Shown: positions 5,135 to 26,156 of the stretch, one piece after another
How the letters are laid out: every line of letters starts with the position of its first letter
Numbering within the stretch: the first letter of the stretch is position 1
Origin: Hymenobacter sp. DG01
Lineage (GTDB): Bacteria > Bacteroidota > Bacteroidia > Cytophagales > Hymenobacteraceae
Assembly (NCBI RefSeq): GCF_006352025.1
Contig: NZ_CP040936.1
Span: 1,922,001 to 1,986,000 of the forward strand
Length of the DNA: 64,000 nt
Direction of reading: 5' to 3'
The notes under the pieces: generated by a model
Seen by the model: only the letters and a program-made list of their open reading frames with translations
The model's database searches: none
What the model was told of the DNA's origin: nothing
Translations under genes and position numbers: made by a program

Positions 5135-6466
5135 TTAGATGTACTGGTTGATGATGTTTTCCAGCCACTCCTGCTTGCCGCTGCGCAGGGTGGGCTCGCC
5201 GTGCTCGTGGGCAATGCGGCGCAGGTCTTCCAGGGTCAGCTGGCCTTTCTCGAAGGCAGCACCCTCACCCGAGTCAAACGAGGCGTAGCGCTCGGTGCGG
5301 AACTTGCGGTAAGCCGACTTCTCCAGGATGTCGTTGGCTACCACCAGGGCGCGGGCGAAGGTGTCCATGCCGCCGATGTGGGCCACGAAAATATCCTCCA
5401 GGTCGGTGGAGTTGCGGCGGGTTTTGGCGTCGAAGTTGATGCCACCGGGCTTGATGCCGCCGTGCTCCAGAATGATGAGCATCGATTCGGTCAGCTCATT
5501 TAGGTTGTTGGGGAACTGGTCGGTATCCCAGCCGTTCTGATAGTCACCACGGTTGGCGTCCATAGAGCCCAGCATATTGGCGTCGGCGGCTACCTGCAGC
5601 TCGTGCTGGAAGGTGTGGCCAGCCAGGGTGGCGTGGTTTACTTCCAGGTTCAGCATGAAGTCGTCCTGCAGGCCGTACTCTTTCAGGAAGCCGATTACGG
5701 TAGCGGCGTCGAAGTCGTACTGGTGCTTGGTGGGCTCGGCGGGCTTGGGCTCAATGAAGAACTTGCCCTGGAAGCCCTGCTTGCGGGCGTAGTCGCGGGC
5801 CATGGTCAGGAAACGACCCATGTGCTCCAGTTCGCGCTTCATGTTGGTGTTGAGCAGGGTCATGTAGCCTTCGCGGCCACCCCAGAACACGTAGTTTTCG
5901 CCGTTCAGAGCAATCGTCGCGTCCAGCGCATTCAGCACCTGAGTGCCGGCGTGGGCTACCACTGCGAAATCGGGGTTGGTAGAAGCGCCGTTCATGTAGC
6001 GCGGGTTCGAAAACACGTTGGCCGTGCCCCACAGCAGCTTAATGCCGGTTTCCTGCTGCTTCTGCTTGGCGTACTCTACAATGCGCTGCAGGTTGCTTTC
6101 GTACTCGCTCAGCGAAGAGCCTTCGTCCACCAGGTCGATGTCGTGGAAGCAGTAGTAAGGGGTGCCGAGCTTGGTGAAGAACTCGAAGGCAGCGTCCATC
6201 TTGTCCTGAGCACGGCCCAGAATATCACCTTTAGCATCCCAGGAAAACTGCTTGGTGCCGGGGCCAAACGGGTCACCGCCGGTGCCGGTGAAGGTGTGCC
6301 AGTACGAAATGGCGAAGCGCAGGTGCTCCTTCATCGTCTTGCCGGCTACAATGCGGTTCTCATCGTACCATTTGAATGCGAGCGGGTTGTCCGACTCACG
6401 ACCTTCAAACTTAATGGTATCGATGCCCTTGAAGTACTCCGTCTTAGAAAGCGTGCTGAGCGACAT
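5135..6466 (-). CDS. xylA: Xylose isomerase
   Basis: A 443-residue cytoplasmic enzyme that converts D-xylose to D-xylulose with divalent metal ions. Both family signatures are present: [11 protein letters not shown] with the catalytic pair His108/Asp111, and FIEPKPAEP with a metal-ligand glutamate. GSMDANRGD and the C-terminal metal-binding [14 protein letters not shown] region are also intact. Length matches the long (class II) xylose isomerases. I chose the ATG at 6466 (MSLSTL), which overlaps the 3' end of xylB by 23 bp. This implies translational coupling in an xylB-xylA operon. The upstream in-frame ATG at 6526 would extend the overlap inside xylB without a conserved sequence. Confidence 0.97.
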
Positions 6467-7970
6467 GGTGGGAAGTAGTGGTAGGTGAAAGAATTTGTTG
6501 GGTGAGGGCCTCATGCCAGCGGGCATAAGCTGAGTGGTATTGCTCCTGCAGGGCAGGGGTAGGCTCCAGGGTCAGGATGCGCTCCAGCCCGGTGAAGGCT
6601 TCTGTGGGGCTGGCGTAAAGCCCTACCCCTATGCCGGCACCACGGGCCGCGCCCTGGGCCGCATCGGTGTTATAAAGCTCCAGCTCCACGTTGCCGCTGT
6701 TCACGAAGGCCTCGCGGAACACTGGGCTCAGGAACATGTTGGCGTTGCCGGCGCGCACCTTGCGCACCTGCACTCCCGACTCTCGCATGATGTCCATGCC
6801 GTAGTTTAGGGCGAAAACGATGCCTTCCTGGGCGGCGCGCAGCACATGGCTCCGGCCGTGAATATTGAAGCTGAGGCCGCGCAGCTCGGCGGTAGTGGGG
6901 CGGTTTTCCAGCACTCGCTCGGCGCCGTTGCCGAAGGGCAGGAACTGCAGCCCCTCCGCTCCTACCGGGGCTTGCGCCGCCAGCTGGTTCATTTCGTCGT
7001 AAGGGAGCTCGCCCACAACCTTGCGGAGCCAGCTGTTCAGAATGCCCGTGCCGTTTACGCACAAGAGCATGCCATTACGGGGCTGAGCCGGAGTGCTGTT
7101 GACGTGCACGAAGGCATTCACGCGGGAGCGGGCATCTACTACGGGCTGGTCGCTGATGCCATATACTACCCCCGAGGTGCCGGCCGTAGCGGCAATTTCG
7201 CCGGGCTGCAGCACGTTGAGAGAGAAGGCGTTGTTGGGCTGGTCGCCGGCGCGGTAGGCAATGGGCGTGCCGGCGTGCAGGCCCAGCTCCTGGGCGGCCT
7301 CAGGTGTCAAGCGGCCCTGCTCGGCGAAGGTATCCACTACCTCGGGCAGCAGGTCGCGGCTGATGCCGTAGAAATCCAGCAAGTCCTGGGCAATGGCCTG
7401 CTCCCGGAAGTTCCAGAACACCCCTTCCGATAAACCCGACACCGTGGTGCACAGGCGGCCGGTCATCTGAAAGGCAATAAAGTCGCCGGGCAGCTGAATT
7501 TTGTGGATCTGCTCGAAAATGGCCGGCTCGTTTTCCTTTACCCACTTGAGCTTGGAAGCTGTGAAGTTGCCGGGCGAGTTCAGCAGGTTCTGCAGGCAGT
7601 ACTCCTCTCCCAGGCCCTCGAAGGCCTGGTTGCCGTACTCCACGGCGCGGCTGTCGCACCAGATAATGGCGGGGCGCAGCACCTTGCCGTTCTTATCTAC
7701 CAGTATCAGGCCGTGCATCTGGTAGGTAATGCCGATACCGGCTACCTGCGTGGCATCGAAGCCGTAGGTCTGCTTTAGCTCGTGGGTAGCATTTACTACC
7801 TCCTGCCACCACCGCTCCGGGCGCTGCTCGGCCCAGCTGGCCAGCGGCGCCAGTATTTCCATTTCCTTTTTAGGAGAGGTGACGCTGGCCAGGCAGCGGC
7901 CAGAATCGGCATCGAGCAGGGCTACTTTAATGGAGGAGCTGCCGATATCGTACCCGAGCAGGTAGTTCAT
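6444..7970 (-). CDS. xylB: Xylulokinase
   Basis: A 508-residue FGGY-family sugar kinase that phosphorylates D-xylulose to xylulose-5-phosphate, the entry to the pentose phosphate pathway. The N-terminal [13 protein letters not shown] is the phosphate-1 loop, IWCDSRA lies near the sugar site, and ATAGTSGVV and [13 protein letters not shown] are the C-terminal ATPase blocks. I chose the ATG at 7970 (MNYLLGYD) because the first residues immediately enter the kinase fold. It is the first gene of the second minus-strand run. A LacI-type double operator with a shared promoter-like box lies about 240 bp upstream at 8207-8249, so its transcription is probably induced by xylan products. Confidence 0.96.
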
Positions 7971-8206
7971 GGGTGGGAGTTCAGGGGAGCTACCGGGGTA
8001 GCCCAGTGGGAAGCCAGGGTCCGCTAGGCAGCGGACCACAGATCAGCAACGCTTGGAAATATTCAATTTTAGCCACTACCGCAACTACCTATACCAGCTT
8101 GTTGCCTGTCGCCGCTAAAAGACCACTTCCAGGGTTTAGTATTCGAATATACAGCAACAGCTTTTCCAGAAGATACTATCAAAACCCTTGTAACAGGCTT
8201 ATTTTC

Positions 8207-8249
8207 AAATAAAAATACCGAAAACGTTTCCGAAAACGGTTCCGATAGG
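8207..8249 (-). promoter_or_regulatory. Double LacI-type operator and AT-rich box upstream of xylB
   Basis: These 43 bp match 24425-24467, upstream of uxuA, at 40 of 43 positions. They hold two AAAACG-type cores (GAAAACGTTTCC and GAAAACGGTTCC) centred at 8225/8226 and 8237/8238, 12 bp apart, next to an AT-rich tract that reads TATTTTTATTT on the coding strand of xylB. AAACGTTT-like palindromes are typical of LacI-family operators, and a LacI-family gene is at 24588. The rest of the 416-bp gap (7971-8387) holds the terminator at 8297-8341; no further gene was seen. Confidence 0.8.
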
Positions 8250-20841: not shown

Positions 20842-22950
20842 TTAGCGCAGCTGGTAGATATCCACCAGCTCCTTGATTTCGGCCAGGGGGCGGGTAGGCG
20901 GCGGGAGGCCGGGGGGCAGGGGCCGCTTGGCGTAGGTCTGGAAGTAGAGCACGCAGGCATCGCGCCACCACAGGGCCTCACGGTGCTGAATGCGCAGGCG
21001 GGCGGCTACATCGGCGTGCAGCTCGGGGTCCACAGCCGGCTTGGCCTGCTCCCACTGCTGCTGCATCCAAAGCACGGAGTCGGCGCCGGTGTAGTAGCGG
21101 GTGGTTAGCTCGTCCCAGAGGGTGCGGCCGGTGCTGAGCTGCTGCCCCCAGCCCACATGATGGAACCAGAGCAGGTAGTCGGGCGGGCAGGTGGCCGGGT
21201 TGCTCCACACCTGACGGGCGCCGGGGGCGTACAGGCTCAGGGCGTTGGAGCCGCTAGCGGTGCGGTTGAAACCGAGGCCCTCGGCATCGGCCTTGTGGTA
21301 GTACACGGAGGTCCAGTCGGGGCGGGCGCTTTTCTCCAGCCAAGGCTCAGGGCCGTAGTGAATGCTCTGACCCATGATGTGGTGCAAACCCAGCGGCGTG
21401 GTATAGCGTACGTAAACATCGCGCGACTGATTCAGGACCTGCGTAACGCTGGCCACGGCTTTGGGCTCGCGCGTCACGGTCATTTTGGTCCACTCATCGG
21501 CAATGGCCTCGGAGCTGAGCGTATGATCCCAGGCCAGGCGGCCGTAGGCGTACCAGTTGGCTTGCCCCACCGGGTGGCCGGTCCAGTTACGGTCGGAGCC
21601 GATGTTGGCTACCCCCGCAATACCGCTGAGGTTGTGCTTTTCCAGAGTACCATCTACCACCTTGGCCACCGTAGAGCCAGAGCCCTGGGCGTGGGTATCG
21701 GCCTCAAGGCACTCTTTAATCAGCGGGCCCAGGTACACAAGGTGGGTAGCGAAGCCCAGATACTCCTGGGTTAGCTGCACCTCCAACACCAGCGGGGTGC
21801 GCGGCATGGCCCCAAACAGCGGGTGGAACGGCTCCCGCGACTGGAAGTCAATCGGGCCGTTTTTTACCTGCACCAGCACTTTGGGGTTGAACTTGCCATC
21901 TAGAGGCTGAAACTCTTCGTAGGCTTCCTTGAACCGGTCGCCTTTGGAGTTGGCTTTGTACACGAAGGCCCGCCACATTACTACCCCATCGTGGGTGCCC
22001 AGGGCCGTGGCCAGCATGTTGGCGCCATCAGCGTGGTTGCGGCCATAGTCTTGCGGGCCAGGTTCGCCTTCGGAGTTGGCCTTTACCAGAAAGCCCCCGA
22101 AGTCGGGAATGGTCTTGTAGATTTCGTCGGTTTTGGCTTTCCACCACTGCTGCACCTTAGGGTCCAGGGGGTCGGAGGTGGGTAGGCCCCCGATTACTTT
22201 GGGCGCGGCCCAGAACACCGAGAGATACACCCGGATGCCGTAAGGGCGCATTACGCCTGCCAGGGCGGCTACCTTTTGCAGGTACTCGGCCGTGAGGTAG
22301 CGGGCGCTGGCGTTTACGTTATTGAGTACTACCCCATTCAGGCCGATGGAAGCATTGGCGCGGGCGTAGTCCTGGTAGCGCGGGTCGAGGCGGTCGGGCA
22401 GCTCCAGCCACTTCCAGATGGAAGAGCCGGCGTAGCCACGCTCCACGGTGCCGTTGGCGTTATCCCAGTGGTTGAGCAGGCGGTACTGAATGCGGGGCTG
22501 GCTGCTCAGGCTGAGTTTGTCGGGCAGCTGCCCGGTTTGCACCTGCCGCAGCAGGGCAAAGCAGCCGTAGAGCACGGCGGCATCGGTGGGGCCGGTAATT
22601 TCCAGCCCGTTTTTCTGGCTTGTGATGCGGTAGCCTTCCCGGCCCAGAGCAGGGTCCGGGGCTACGCGCAACCGAATGCTACCCCTACCGCCCGGCGCCG
22701 CCCCTATCGGCACCGGGCGCCCCAGCAGTCCTTGCAGCCCGAGTTGCAGCTCGTGCGCGGCGGTTTGCAGGGTGGGGGTTGCATTGGATTCCACTACAAT
22801 ACCCCGGGCCTGCGCCTGCCAGGCCTTGCGCAGACCGGCTTCGGGCAGTTCGTCATACTTCAGCCACAAACGGTAGCCGTCATCGGCGCGCCCCGGAAGG
22901 ACGGTACCGAAACAAAGCAGCGCGAGTAGCAGAAAAAAGCGGGGTAGCAT
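20842..22950 (-). CDS. GH67 alpha-glucuronidase
   Basis: A 702-residue exported enzyme that removes (4-O-methyl-)glucuronic acid from the non-reducing end of aldouronic acids made by GH10 xylanases. The signal peptide (residues 1-22, ending GRA) is followed by the beta-rich N-terminal domain and the (beta/alpha)8 domain with NHWDN and GGFLVKANSEGEPGP, where Glu294 is the likely acid, then MWRAFVY and the GH67 C-terminal helical domain. The start at 22950 (MLPRFF) gives the signal peptide and leaves 46 bp after uxuA. The open frame extends upstream to 23382, but that part lies antisense-free inside uxuA in another frame and codes a Thr/Ala/Arg-rich shadow. The enzyme supplies glucuronate to the UxuA branch encoded beside it. 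Confidence 0.94.
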   Translation of the reverse strand: MLPRFFLLLALLCFGTVLPGRADDGYRLWLKYDELPEAGLRKAWQAQARGIVVESNATPTLQTAAHELQLGLQGLLGRPVPIGAAPGGRGSIRLRVAPDPALGREGYRITSQKNGLEITGPTDAAVLYGCFALLRQVQTGQLPDKLSLSSQPRIQYRLLNHWDNANGTVERGYAGSSIWKWLELPDRLDPRYQDYARANASIGLNGVVLNNVNASARYLTAEYLQKVAALAGVMRPYGIRVYLSVFWAAPKVIGGLPTSDPLDPKVQQWWKAKTDEIYKTIPDFGGFLVKANSEGEPGPQDYGRNHADGANMLATALGTHDGVVMWRAFVYKANSKGDRFKEAYEEFQPLDGKFNPKVLVQVKNGPIDFQSREPFHPLFGAMPRTPLVLEVQLTQEYLGFATHLVYLGPLIKECLEADTHAQGSGSTVAKVVDGTLEKHNLSGIAGVANIGSDRNWTGHPVGQANWYAYGRLAWDHTLSSEAIADEWTKMTVTREPKAVASVTQVLNQSRDVYVRYTTPLGLHHIMGQSIHYGPEPWLEKSARPDWTSVYYHKADAEGLGFNRTASGSNALSLYAPGARQVWSNPATCPPDYLLWFHHVGWGQQLSTGRTLWDELTTRYYTGADSVLWMQQQWEQAKPAVDPELHADVAARLRIQHREALWWRDACVLYFQTYAKRPLPPGLPPPTRPLAEIKELVDIYQLR

Positions 22951-22996
22951 GCGCAGGAAAGGGTAGAAAGGTCGAGGTTGGGTAGGGCGGCGTGGG

Positions 22997-24253
22997 CTAA
23001 ACAAAGCGGGTGGCGTGGGCCTCGTCGGAGAGCTGAGCGGAAGCATTTTCTTCGGAGGCCTCCAGGTTGCGGCGAATGCCGAGCTCCAGCCCCCGAAGTT
23101 CGGCCAGCCCGCGCAGGCGGCCAATGGCGGAGTACCCGGGGTAGGTGCGCTTTTCCAGGTCGTCGAGCATCTGGTGGCCGTGGTCGGGGCGCATGGGCAA
23201 GCTGGGGTTGCCTCCGCCGGTGCGGGCCCGGCGCAGCTCTTCGCGCACCAGCTCCTGCACCACCGCGTACATATCCACGTCGCCCTCCAGGTGGTCGGCC
23301 TCGTGGAAGTTGCGCGGGTTTTCCTCGCGCTTGGTGGCGCGCAGGTGCACAAAGTGAATGCGGTTCCCGAGGCGCCGCACAATACCGGGCAGATCGTTAT
23401 CGGGCCGCACGCCCAGGGAACCAGTGCAAAAGGTCAGGCCATTGGCCGGCGAGTCGTAGGCCTGCAGCAGGCCTGCCAGGTCGGCTTCGGTGCTTACTAC
23501 CCGGGGCAGGCCCAGCAGCGGGAAAGGCGGGTCATCGGGGTGAATGCAGAGGCCAATGCCCACCTCTTCGGCTACCGGGCCTACCTCCCGGAGGAAGTAG
23601 TACAGGTTTTCGCGCAGGGCATCAGCATCAATAGTGGCGTACTCATTCAGCAGCTCCTGAAAGCCGTTCAGCTCAAACGCCTCTTCGGAGCCGGGCAGGC
23701 CCAGCAGCACCACGTTGGTGAGGGTAGTAATTTCTTCCGGGGTCAGGGTAGCGAACTTAGCGCGGGCGGCAGCGGCTACCTCGGGCTCGTAGTCTGCTTC
23801 GGCACCCGGGCGGCGCAGAATGCAGAGGTCAAAGAGGGCGAAGTCTTCCCACACAAAGCGCAGGGCCCGCGAGCCGTCGGGCATCTCGTAGGTCAGGTTG
23901 GTGCGCGACCAGTCCAGCACCGGCATAAAGTTGTAGCACACGGTGCGGATGCCACAGGCAGCCAGGTTACGCAGACTCTGCTGGTAGTTGCGGATGTACT
24001 CGGCACGGGCCGGCCGTCCTTTCTTTATATCCTCGTGCACGGGCAGGCTTTCCACCACGGCCCAGTGCAGGGGTGCGTACCGGTCATTATCGGCTTCAAT
24101 CAGCTGCTGGCGGGCCCGAATGTCGTCTTGGCTCCATACTGACCCGACGGGCAGCTGGTGCAGGGCGGTTACTACGCCCGTACAGCCGGCCTGCCGGAGA
24201 GCAAAAAGAGAAACCGGGTCCTGGGGCCCGAACCAGCGCATGGTGTGCAGCAT
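22997..24253 (-). CDS. uxuA: D-mannonate dehydratase
   Basis: A 418-residue UxuA-family enzyme that dehydrates D-mannonate to 2-keto-3-deoxygluconate. The N-terminus MLHTMRWFGPQDPVSL, the block VCYNFMPVLDWSRT, and the metal-site segments GLCIHPDDPPFPLLGLPRV, NGLTFCTGSLG and HFVHLRATKRE are characteristic. It is the first gene of the 16-kb minus-strand run and is divergent from the LacI-family regulator. The 334-bp gap (24254-24587) contains the double operator at 24425-24467, so both genes are probably controlled from it. No uxaC (uronate isomerase), kdgK or kdgA gene is in the window; these must lie elsewhere if the pathway is complete. Confidence 0.95.
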   Translation of the reverse strand: MLHTMRWFGPQDPVSLFALRQAGCTGVVTALHQLPVGSVWSQDDIRARQQLIEADNDRYAPLHWAVVESLPVHEDIKKGRPARAEYIRNYQQSLRNLAACGIRTVCYNFMPVLDWSRTNLTYEMPDGSRALRFVWEDFALFDLCILRRPGAEADYEPEVAAAARAKFATLTPEEITTLTNVVLLGLPGSEEAFELNGFQELLNEYATIDADALRENLYYFLREVGPVAEEVGIGLCIHPDDPPFPLLGLPRVVSTEADLAGLLQAYDSPANGLTFCTGSLGVRPDNDLPGIVRRLGNRIHFVHLRATKREENPRNFHEADHLEGDVDMYAVVQELVREELRRARTGGGNPSLPMRPDHGHQMLDDLEKRTYPGYSAIGRLRGLAELRGLELGIRRNLEASEENASAQLSDEAHATRFV

Positions 24254-24424
24254 AAAAGCGTACTCTTCTAACCAAAAAGTCCTATTAACTATTCAGTAGT
24301 AATCCCGCGGGCTATCTGGCAAGGTTTTCGTCCAGCACAGCAGTTAGGGAGTACTTACTACCGAAGATAGAAGAACAATTGAGCGGATTAGCAACCTAAA
24401 AACCGGCCTAAATGCCTGATTTCT

Positions 24425-24467
24425 AAATAAAAATATCGAAAACGTTTCCGAAAACGTTTTCGATAGG
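24425..24467. promoter_or_regulatory. Double LacI-type operator between uxuA and its regulator
   Basis: This box contains a perfect inverted repeat: TATCGAAAACG at 24434-24444 and its complement CGTTTTCGATA at 24455-24465, with a 10-bp centre. It can also be read as two AAACGTTT operator cores 12 bp apart (centres 24443/24444 and 24455/24456). An AT-rich tract reading TATTTTTATTT toward uxuA abuts it. Forty of 43 positions match the xylB upstream box at 8207-8249. It lies 172 bp before uxuA and 121 bp before the regulator gene. No other feature was recognised in this 334-bp gap. Confidence 0.84.
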
Positions 24468-24587
24468 TATTAATAACACCTGGCGAGGCAAAATTTTTTC
24501 TGTAGATTATCCCTGAATTAAAAAGTATCGCATCGGCCTTGACTTTTCAAATCATCTGCCCAATTTTGAAATAATTCAATTCCATCC

Positions 24588-25766
24588 ATGATTAAATGCA
24601 CCAAGTGCCGGTCGGCCGACGCTGTAATGCGCGCCGGCTTCATTCGGGGGCGGCAGCGGTACCACTGTAAGGCGTGCAACTACCACTTCACCGATGAGAA
24701 GGCCCTGCCCCTCCCCGAGAAGAAGCGCCGGCAGACCACCATCAGCGACGTAGCCAAGGAATTGGGGGTAGCCCCGTCCACAGTTTCGCGCGCCCTTAAC
24801 GGGCATTCTGACATTAATGTGAATACCCGGCAGGCCATTCTGGAGGTGGCCCGCCAACTCGACTACCAGCCTAACCTGCTGGCGCAAAGCCTGAAAAGCA
24901 GCGAAACCAAAACCATCGGGGTGGTGATTCCCGACATTGAGCGGCCATTTTTCGCAACGGCTGTTAGCGGTATTCAGCAGGTAGTGGCTGAGGCCGGCTA
25001 CCGCGTGATGATCTGCCAGTCGAAGGAATCCTACGATATGGAGGTCAGCAACGTGCAGGCTCTCATTGCCAGCCGCGTGGACGGGCTGCTGATCTGCCAC
25101 TCCCGCGAAACCGAAAATTTCGACCACGTAAAGCAACCTGCCAGCCGGGGCATTCCCATTGTGCACTTTGACCGGGTTTGCAACGAGGTAGATACGGCCA
25201 AAGTAATTCTCGACGACTGGAACGGGGCCTTCAGCGTAACGGAGCACCTGATTCAGCAGGGCGCCCGGCGCATTGCCATTCTGGCCGGCCCCGAAGGACT
25301 GCTCATCAGCCGCAACCGCCTGGCCGGCTACGTCAGCGCCCTGCAGAAATACGGCTTGCCCCTGCGCGACGAGCTGCGCATTCACATCAACTTCAAGCCC
25401 GAGCAGGCGGTAGCAGCCCTGGATACCTGGCTGGCCCTCCCCCACCCGCCCGACGCCATCTTCGCCATTAACTACACCAACGCCTTTGACTTGCTGGTGG
25501 CCCTTAAGGCCCGGGGCCTGCGCGTGCCTGAGGACGTCGCCGTGGTTGGCTTCGGCGACGAGTTTATGGCTTCCATGATTGAGCCGGGCCTGACGACGGT
25601 AAACCTGCACCCCTACCGCATTGGGCAGCAGGCGGCGCGGCTGTTCCTGGAGCAGGTGCGCGAGAAAGAAGCTTTTCAGCCCCGCACCTTCGTTATTACC
25701 GGCGACCTGGTCATCCGACAGTCCTCGCTGAAAAACAAGGGCGAGTTTTTCAAGTTGGATATTTAA
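24588..25766 (+). CDS. LacI-family regulator with N-terminal zinc ribbon
   Basis: A 392-residue regulator, about 50 residues longer at the N-terminus than ordinary LacI proteins. Residues 1-35 hold four cysteines (Cys4, Cys7, Cys27, Cys30: CTKC and CKAC) around RAGFIRGRQRYH, a zinc ribbon like that in IS1 InsA and related transposase accessory proteins. The LacI helix-turn-helix follows (about 51-72, TISDVAKELGVAPSTVSRAL), then the hinge (LLAQSLKS, 97-104) and a periplasmic-binding-protein-like effector domain (about 108-380, IGVVIPDIERPFF, DGLLICHS, VVGFGDEF). Position opposite uxuA with an AAACGTTT double operator between them implies local repression lifted by a xylan or uronate product. 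The effector is unknown. The ATG at 24588 is needed to include the cysteines; a shorter LacI-only protein has no ATG near residue 45. Confidence 0.92.
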   Translation: MIKCTKCRSADAVMRAGFIRGRQRYHCKACNYHFTDEKALPLPEKKRRQTTISDVAKELGVAPSTVSRALNGHSDINVNTRQAILEVARQLDYQPNLLAQSLKSSETKTIGVVIPDIERPFFATAVSGIQQVVAEAGYRVMICQSKESYDMEVSNVQALIASRVDGLLICHSRETENFDHVKQPASRGIPIVHFDRVCNEVDTAKVILDDWNGAFSVTEHLIQQGARRIAILAGPEGLLISRNRLAGYVSALQKYGLPLRDELRIHINFKPEQAVAALDTWLALPHPPDAIFAINYTNAFDLLVALKARGLRVPEDVAVVGFGDEFMASMIEPGLTTVNLHPYRIGQQAARLFLEQVREKEAFQPRTFVITGDLVIRQSSLKNKGEFFKLDI

Positions 25767-25835: not shown

Positions 25836-26156
25836 TTAGCGCGTGGTACCGGTAGTGTTGCCAGCGGTGGTACCCGTAGTGCCGCTGGTAGTACCCGTGG
25901 TGGTAGCGCCCGAGGTGCTGCCCGAAGTACTGCCGGTGGTATTGGCGCCCGAGGTGCTGTACGTAGTTGAGCCGCTGGTAGAACCCGTAGTGGCCGAGCC
26001 ACTAGTGGAGCCGCTGGTAGAGGCGTCGGTGCCAGAACCAGAACCGGCCGGGCTATCGGTGCTGGTGGAAGAGCAAGAGGCCAGGGCAATGCCCCCGCAG
26101 AATACTACCGCAGCCGCCAAACGGGCCGACCATGCGGAAAGGGAAGTGAGTTTCAT
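25836..26156 (-). CDS. Small Ser/Thr/Gly-rich lipoprotein
   Basis: A 106-residue protein with a lipoprotein signal: hydrophobic core ARLAAAVVFCGGIALA followed by lipobox ALASC (Cys28). The mature part is almost entirely Ser, Thr, Gly and Ala, in degenerate repeats of the STSGST type, with no recognisable domain. The N-terminal MKLTSLSAW is a convincing start, and the lipobox sets the frame against the opposite-strand Val/Pro-rich reading. It is probably a surface-anchored low-complexity spacer or mucin-like protein. No function can be assigned. The repeats make it prone to length variation. Confidence 0.72.
   Translation of the reverse strand: MKLTSLSAWSARLAAAVVFCGGIALASCSSTSTDSPAGSGSGTDASTSGSTSGSATTGSTSGSTTYSTSGANTTGSTSGSTSGATTTGTTSGTTGTTAGNTTGTTR

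Follow-up and report, generated by a model that had tools for sequence, protein, structure and literature searches.

Background

Textbook LacI regulators read DNA with a single module, on operators of 16–22 bp. One survey reports overlapping LacI sites, spaced by about 13 bp, upstream of 110 operons and calls binding at such sites hard to reconcile with structures (PMC4052901). In NrdR, a zinc ribbon binds specific boxes, and the ribbons associate in pairs (PMC12176259). Here we analysed a 64,000-nucleotide stretch of Hymenobacter sp. DG01 DNA (the window), which encodes a LacI regulator with a zinc ribbon ahead of its helix-turn-helix (HTH). A literature search for this combination, covering titles and the starts of abstracts, found no paper describing it.

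A zinc ribbon precedes the LacI helix-turn-helix

The ribbon-LacI gene (24588..25766, plus strand), defined by its open reading frame and profile matches, encodes 392 amino acids from an ATG start. Its zinc ribbon covers residues 4–36 (24597..24695, plus strand), as indicated by a match to NF050000, a 34-member alignment, conservation in 149/149 proteins and AlphaFold2 strands. The initial annotation had placed Cys4, Cys7, Cys27 and Cys30 around RGRQRYH at the N terminus of this reading frame with a LacI HTH after them, and both were confirmed, the HTH by a PF00356 match at residues 51–96 (24738..24875, plus strand; 52.5 bits, cut-off 27). Residues 51–380 comprise the LacI HTH and the sensor, with the Peripla_BP domains PF00532 (125.5 bits) and PF13377 (115.7 bits) above their cut-offs. 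NCBIfam NF050000, the N-terminal Zn domain of IS1/IS1595, scored 29.3 bits on the whole protein (cut-off 28) and 34.1 bits on the ribbon alone. Pfam InsA (PF03811) stayed below its cut-off of 26.1, with 17.8 bits for the whole protein and 22.2 for the ribbon alone, as did the Pfam IS1595 ribbon family PF12760 below its own, and family profile searches found no transposase domain in the protein. Against PDB sequences, the ribbon alone reached a best E of only 0.56; alignments to the relatives CcpA, PurR and RbsR start at about residue 45–50. An AlphaFold2 model from 23 sequences has ribbon strands at 13–19, 22–27 and 32–35, block pLDDT values of 81, 81, 86 and 72 for residues 1–40, and pLDDT below 50 at residues 39–46, the linker.

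We also considered a false start. Among in-frame ATG, GTG and TTG codons in the first 52, the only one besides the annotated ATG is the ATG at codon 14; as this lies within the ribbon, no alternative start cleanly removes it. Relative to 26 Hymenobacter loci, whose shared ancestry makes the counts non-independent, codons 1–36 differ in 91, 110 and 421 cases at codon positions 1, 2 and 3, and this third-position bias is as expected for a translated ribbon. A false start was rejected on the position of the sole other start, inside the ribbon, and on the third-position bias. The initial annotation had regarded the fusion as unreal should translation begin after residue 40; no usable start codon lies between there and codon 52, and the fusion is real.

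A conserved ribbon-LacI family in Bacteroidota

Judged by sequence, ribbon-LacI proteins are a conserved family that extends from Hymenobacter to Runella, Chryseolinea and Chitinophagaceae. Absence of the ribbon from homologues would likewise have spoken against the fusion, and further genomes of the genus do contain full-length fused orthologues. Among the matches listed in a 39-genome search, those starting at residue 1 came from this genome (G000), from same-genus genomes and twice from G034, a genome of another family, whereas most other LacI matches listed start between query residues 24 and 58. Query residues 1–60 retrieved 22 proteins, from Hymenobacter in every named case. Residues 1–66 of the G188 protein retrieved 46, its own record included, and their named sources include Chitinophagaceae, Ginsengibacter and Desertivirga.

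Scanning genome contigs yielded 173 loci, of which the best 80 were kept: 61 from Hymenobacter/Hymenobacteraceae and 19 others, including Rhabdobacter, Runella, Telluribacter, Chryseolinea, Ohtaekwangia, Flectobacillus and Siphonobacter. With 69 P records, these make 149 proteins (127 distinct N-termini), and 149/149 keep C-x2-C-x19-C-x2-C with R-x2-QR (R20/Q23/R24), a count that is not an unbiased rate because retrieval used ribbon words and patterns. R20, Q23, R24 and the four cysteines are invariant in an alignment of 34 deep members, all of which (34/34) match NF050000 at E ≤0.001.

To place the ribboned proteins among LacI regulators, a tree was built from 92 LacI cores without the ribbon part, 45 from ribboned and 47 from ribbonless proteins; at least five ribbonless loci on minus strands (L018, L021, L023, L025 and L026), which yielded no LacI core, are not among its rows, nor are the proteins of the Bacteroides UxuR/UxaR/KdgR LacI branch mentioned in PMC4052901. 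Ribboned rows formed two clades, one of 33 and the other of 12, and within the latter sits ribbonless L015 (support 97/87 and 100/99). The ribbon may have been gained once, with subsequent losses, or gained twice.

Origin of the ribbon

The ribbon had been proposed to be a transposon-type module recruited to the regulator. The NF050000 match above cut-off and the conserved fusion uphold part of this proposal; a transposon source is no more than possible, and a host ribbon-HTH protein has a similar ribbon. The only other place in this genome over the NF050000 cut-off encodes this 140-aa protein of InsA-like layout (G000:C1:1471898-1472317, corresponding to L267:2896-3318; minus strand). Its ribbon is 51% identical to the LacI ribbon over 39 residues, and its relatives occur at E <1e-50 in 25/39 genomes, its own included. 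On the IS1 transposase model it scored 77.7 bits, below the cut-off of 100, and its family matches include no LacI sensor. The LacI ribbon may derive from a host protein of this kind.

A predicted 34-bp operator in a glucuronoxylan locus

The locus had been annotated as serving glucuronoxylan use, in agreement with its UxuA, GH67, GH10 and GH3 genes. Divergent from lacI lies uxuA, for D-mannonate dehydratase (22997..24253, minus strand; PF03786, 415.9 bits), and on the same strand a GH67 alpha-glucuronidase gene (20842..23382; PF07488 and PF07477) whose true start is probably further in. Past the uxuA-GH67-SDR run come genes that look susC/susD-like, followed by esterase-like, GH3 and GH10 genes. 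Just 3′ of lacI, a small open reading frame (25836-26156, minus strand) consists mostly of Ser/Thr/Gly repeats after a lipoprotein-like start.

Between lacI and the uxuA-GH67-SDR run sits box 1 (24433..24466, unstranded), which alignment and symmetry identify as one predicted symmetric 34-bp operator, newly recognized here. Its outer pair, TAYCG-N22-CGRTA, falls exactly at 24434-24465, and the dyad lies between 24449 and 24450. The doubled operator core noted in the initial annotation is real, and the conserved symmetric unit that we found spans 34 bp. Box 2, a second predicted operator with the outer pair (8216..8247, unstranded), lies upstream of an FGGY sugar kinase gene, probably a xylulokinase (6444..8039, minus strand; PF00370). 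After the kinase comes a gene at 5135-6526 that we liken to xylose isomerase and that had no Pfam match at 1e-5. In genomes G424 and G204, too, a second box stands ahead of the same kinase and xylose-isomerase-like pair, and one box in G034 precedes susC/susD-like genes, beside genes that look to us like L-fucose use. Thus the arms persist although sensors and targets differ.

In aligned Hymenobacter intergenic regions, largely conserved islands at 24362-24370 and 24506-24511 flank box 1, and to us they resemble divergent Bacteroidota −7 elements. Should these islands be promoters, both would have the box on their upstream side, and the regulator could equally well activate or repress.

A template scan of 700 bp upstream of ribboned genes reached at least 24 of 32 positions in 80/81 regions. 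On the same template, random window stretches had a median score of 17 and a 95th percentile of 20, and the highest-scoring of them scored like the boxes themselves. As the template was built from the same ribboned set, other tests were made. Comparing mirror positions about the centre of 69 distinct boxes gave agreement in 973/1173 cells, against a shuffled mean of 887 (z = 11.1), whereas covariation about the two AACGTT side cores is at shuffle level (z = 0.95 and −0.59); the shuffles ignore relatedness, and the side-core values, which share that relatedness, act as a control. The idea that the ribboned box holds a pair of separate operators, each palindromic in itself, was rejected for this lack of side-core covariation, which by itself is compatible both with one central dimer and with two overlapping dimers. 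G at ±13, T at ±15 and A at ±16 are near invariant (at least 66/69 on each side), and the central C-G is present in 67/69 boxes on each side. Nearly invariant mirror letters on both sides indicate that the two outer halves are read equivalently. On the right flank, conservation drops beyond ±17 with T at 19 retained; on the left, an A-rich stretch goes on. In G188, 20 to 51 bp separate the box from the start codon that follows it.

The outer pair, not the doubled core, accompanies the ribbon

As a ribbonless control, 77 loci were tried; L206, L280 and L294 were dropped without a readable HTH, and the remaining 74 represent 71 distinct genes, as the pairs L015/L268, L026/L201 and L186/L277 are each one gene. 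The ribbonless set was read over 450 bp, and both sets were then compared over 400 bp. A doubled AACGTT core was found upstream of 38/81 ribboned genes and, by the same strict pattern, of 16/71 distinct ribbonless LacI genes. The proposal that the ribbon explains the doubled core was therefore rejected; with the overlapping sites already reported in PMC4052901, the doubled core is a wider feature of LacI regulators. The 15 distinct ribbonless doubled-core operators are conserved to about ±13, beyond which the right side is not conserved and the left is A/T-rich. TA at ±15,16 occurs in 1/15 of them on each side, compared with at least 66/69 ribboned boxes. By these comparisons, the feature that accompanies the ribbon is the outer pair CTATCG/CGATAG instead of the doubled core.

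The outer pair was detected within 400 bp upstream of 73/81 ribboned genes, which are not 73 independent cases since 61/80 kept loci are from Hymenobacter/Hymenobacteraceae; outside Hymenobacteraceae, it precedes 18/19 ribboned genes. When spacings of 14–30 were scanned, N22 was found in 73/81. Ribboned genes missing the pair are L085, L088, L097, L099, L100, L102, L103 and L153. At L102 the change is symmetric and preserves GATAG; upstream of the L153 gene the template scan found no box, and the L153 genome has one about 19 kb away. Upstream of the 71 distinct ribbonless LacI genes, the outer pair was absent from the 400 bp compared (0/71); exceptions in a looser sense are L190, which has the pair at a spacing of 24, and L190 and L210, each with a single CGATAG or CTATCG.

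Across 395 genomes of the phylum, where up to 12 candidate ribbon matches were scored per genome, both-strand (palindromic) box matches occur in 6/6 full-ribbon genomes compared with 1/389 others (G389). Allowing at most one mismatch on either strand, the figures were 6/6 and 3/389 (G306, G212 and G230). For the G188 family, ten matches besides G188 itself were collected, nine of ribbon length and one ribbonless; eight of the nine read as ribboned, L336 not. The strict outer pair precedes 4/8 of these ribboned genes (L328, L332, L333 and L335), and L330 and L331 keep 9 and 8 of the 10 outer positions around a LacI-like core. Neither L329 (8/10 outer positions, without a LacI-like core) nor L334 has a convincing box upstream.

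How the outer arms may be read

We put the probability at roughly 65% that the ribbon serves as an additional DNA-reading module, one that recognises the outer CGATAG arms of the operator. Each subunit would read the core with its HTH and an outer CGATAG arm with the tethered ribbon, and a dimer with four readers would then recognise a symmetric operator of 34 bp, where 16–22 bp is usual. The ribbon would bind zinc and contact DNA directly, with R20, Q23 and R24 as candidate base readers. The four DNA-binding elements per dimer proposed in the initial annotation fit the outer-pair data; as a cause of the doubled core they fail on the 16/71 ribbonless genes. As one predicted operator separates lacI from uxuA and another precedes the xylulokinase-like gene, both the glucuronoxylan locus and the regulator's own gene would respond to a sugar effector, which is probably derived from xylose or glucuronate.

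Two geometries can be drawn. One dimer on the central dyad would account for both arms and avoid a clash. Alternatively, dimers would sit on the two side cores, each centred on AAC-GTT. This is the canonical LacI centre, and the side cores match it better than the central dyad does; in LacI/PurR geometry, two fully docked side-core dimers would both need the central major groove and so compete for it.

The side-core geometry would also place the ATAG letters next to letters read by the HTH, so that the HTH or the basic linker might read the arms while the ribbon travels along as a metal or redox switch or in some other role. A Cys4 site could indeed respond to metal or oxidation, and a switch of this kind, as raised in the initial annotation, is possible. 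We consider this reading of the arms unlikely: a bare metal switch does not predict the invariance of R20, Q23 and R24 besides the cysteines, and ribbonless relatives retain the HTH and linker residues without the outer pair. L015 and its seven relatives (L268-L275, where L015 = L268) keep the SKSTVSRAL helix, the K-H-Q-T linker end and GGGAA-type cores, and neither the outer pair nor CGATAG/CTATCG was found upstream of any of the eight genes; L015 is the member in the tree, the others being placed by 65–100% identity to it. In G028, the genome of L015, the nearest box match has 3 mismatches, which is control level, and none lies near these genes. The ribboned Siphonobacter gene L148 has a GGGAA-type core plus arms. 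The link between ribbon and outer pair, these ribbon-loss relatives included, is an association at the level of sequence. Between the GGGAA-type cores of L268-L275 the distance is 19 bp in seven genes and 12 bp in L273.

It is improbable that the ribbon reads no bases and instead serves as a protein–protein module pairing neighbouring LacI dimers on the doubled operator. Pairing of NrdR ribbons (PMC12176259) and the frequent doubling of LacI sites (PMC4052901) lend this some plausibility; against it, doubled cores of the same spacing occur without a ribbon (16/71), and the tie of the outer pair to the ribbon (73/81 compared with 0/71) is left unexplained. That another protein, a partner of the ribboned regulator, binds the arms is very improbable: none of the results points to it, the pair holds its exact 22-bp spacing around the LacI cores while the dyad ranges from 35 to 340 bp from the ATG across ribboned genes, and the pair co-occurs with the ribboned gene by genome.

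To the broader reading, built on ribbon reading of the arms, we give even odds: a widespread Bacteroidota LacI class would have gained a modular second base-reading domain, with four readers on one 34-bp operator, core and arms that evolve separately, and loss of the ribbon together with the arms in one lineage. If true, it would offer a way into the puzzle of overlapping LacI sites, for which genes that have lost the ribbon and lack the arms provide a natural comparison of how close-packed sites are bound. A second reading module would also illustrate a gain of specificity amid LacI paralogues with near-identical recognition helices, and the family would allow operators to be predicted for many sugar loci of Bacteroidota that await characterisation.

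Comparison with known systems

With the LacI/GalR family (PurR, CcpA and RbsR), the regulator shares the PF00356 HTH, the Peripla_BP sensor and a central CG in the predicted operator; it differs by its extra N-terminal ribbon. The predicted operator spans 34 bp, compared with motifs of 16–22 nt for most of 1303 surveyed LacI regulators in a survey that searched 14–24 bp (PMC4052901). Escherichia coli GntR at gntKU likewise has two LacI cores that lie closer together than a pair of dimers would be expected to permit, about 13 bp apart there and 12 bp here, and section 9 of PMC4052901, which treats it, does not mention outer arms of the ribbon type. The ribbons of IS1 InsA and IS1595 transposases have in common with ribbon-LacI a Cys4 ribbon with QRYxC; in ribbon-LacI, a LacI HTH and sensor follow. 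NrdR is similar in part, with an N-terminal CxxC...CxxC ribbon, a flexible linker and a sensor, and with specific boxes that it binds (PMC12176259). It differs in having an ATP-cone, which is absent from the Pfam families listed for ribbon-LacI (25/30), and in ribbon-LacI the ribbon is an addition to an HTH.
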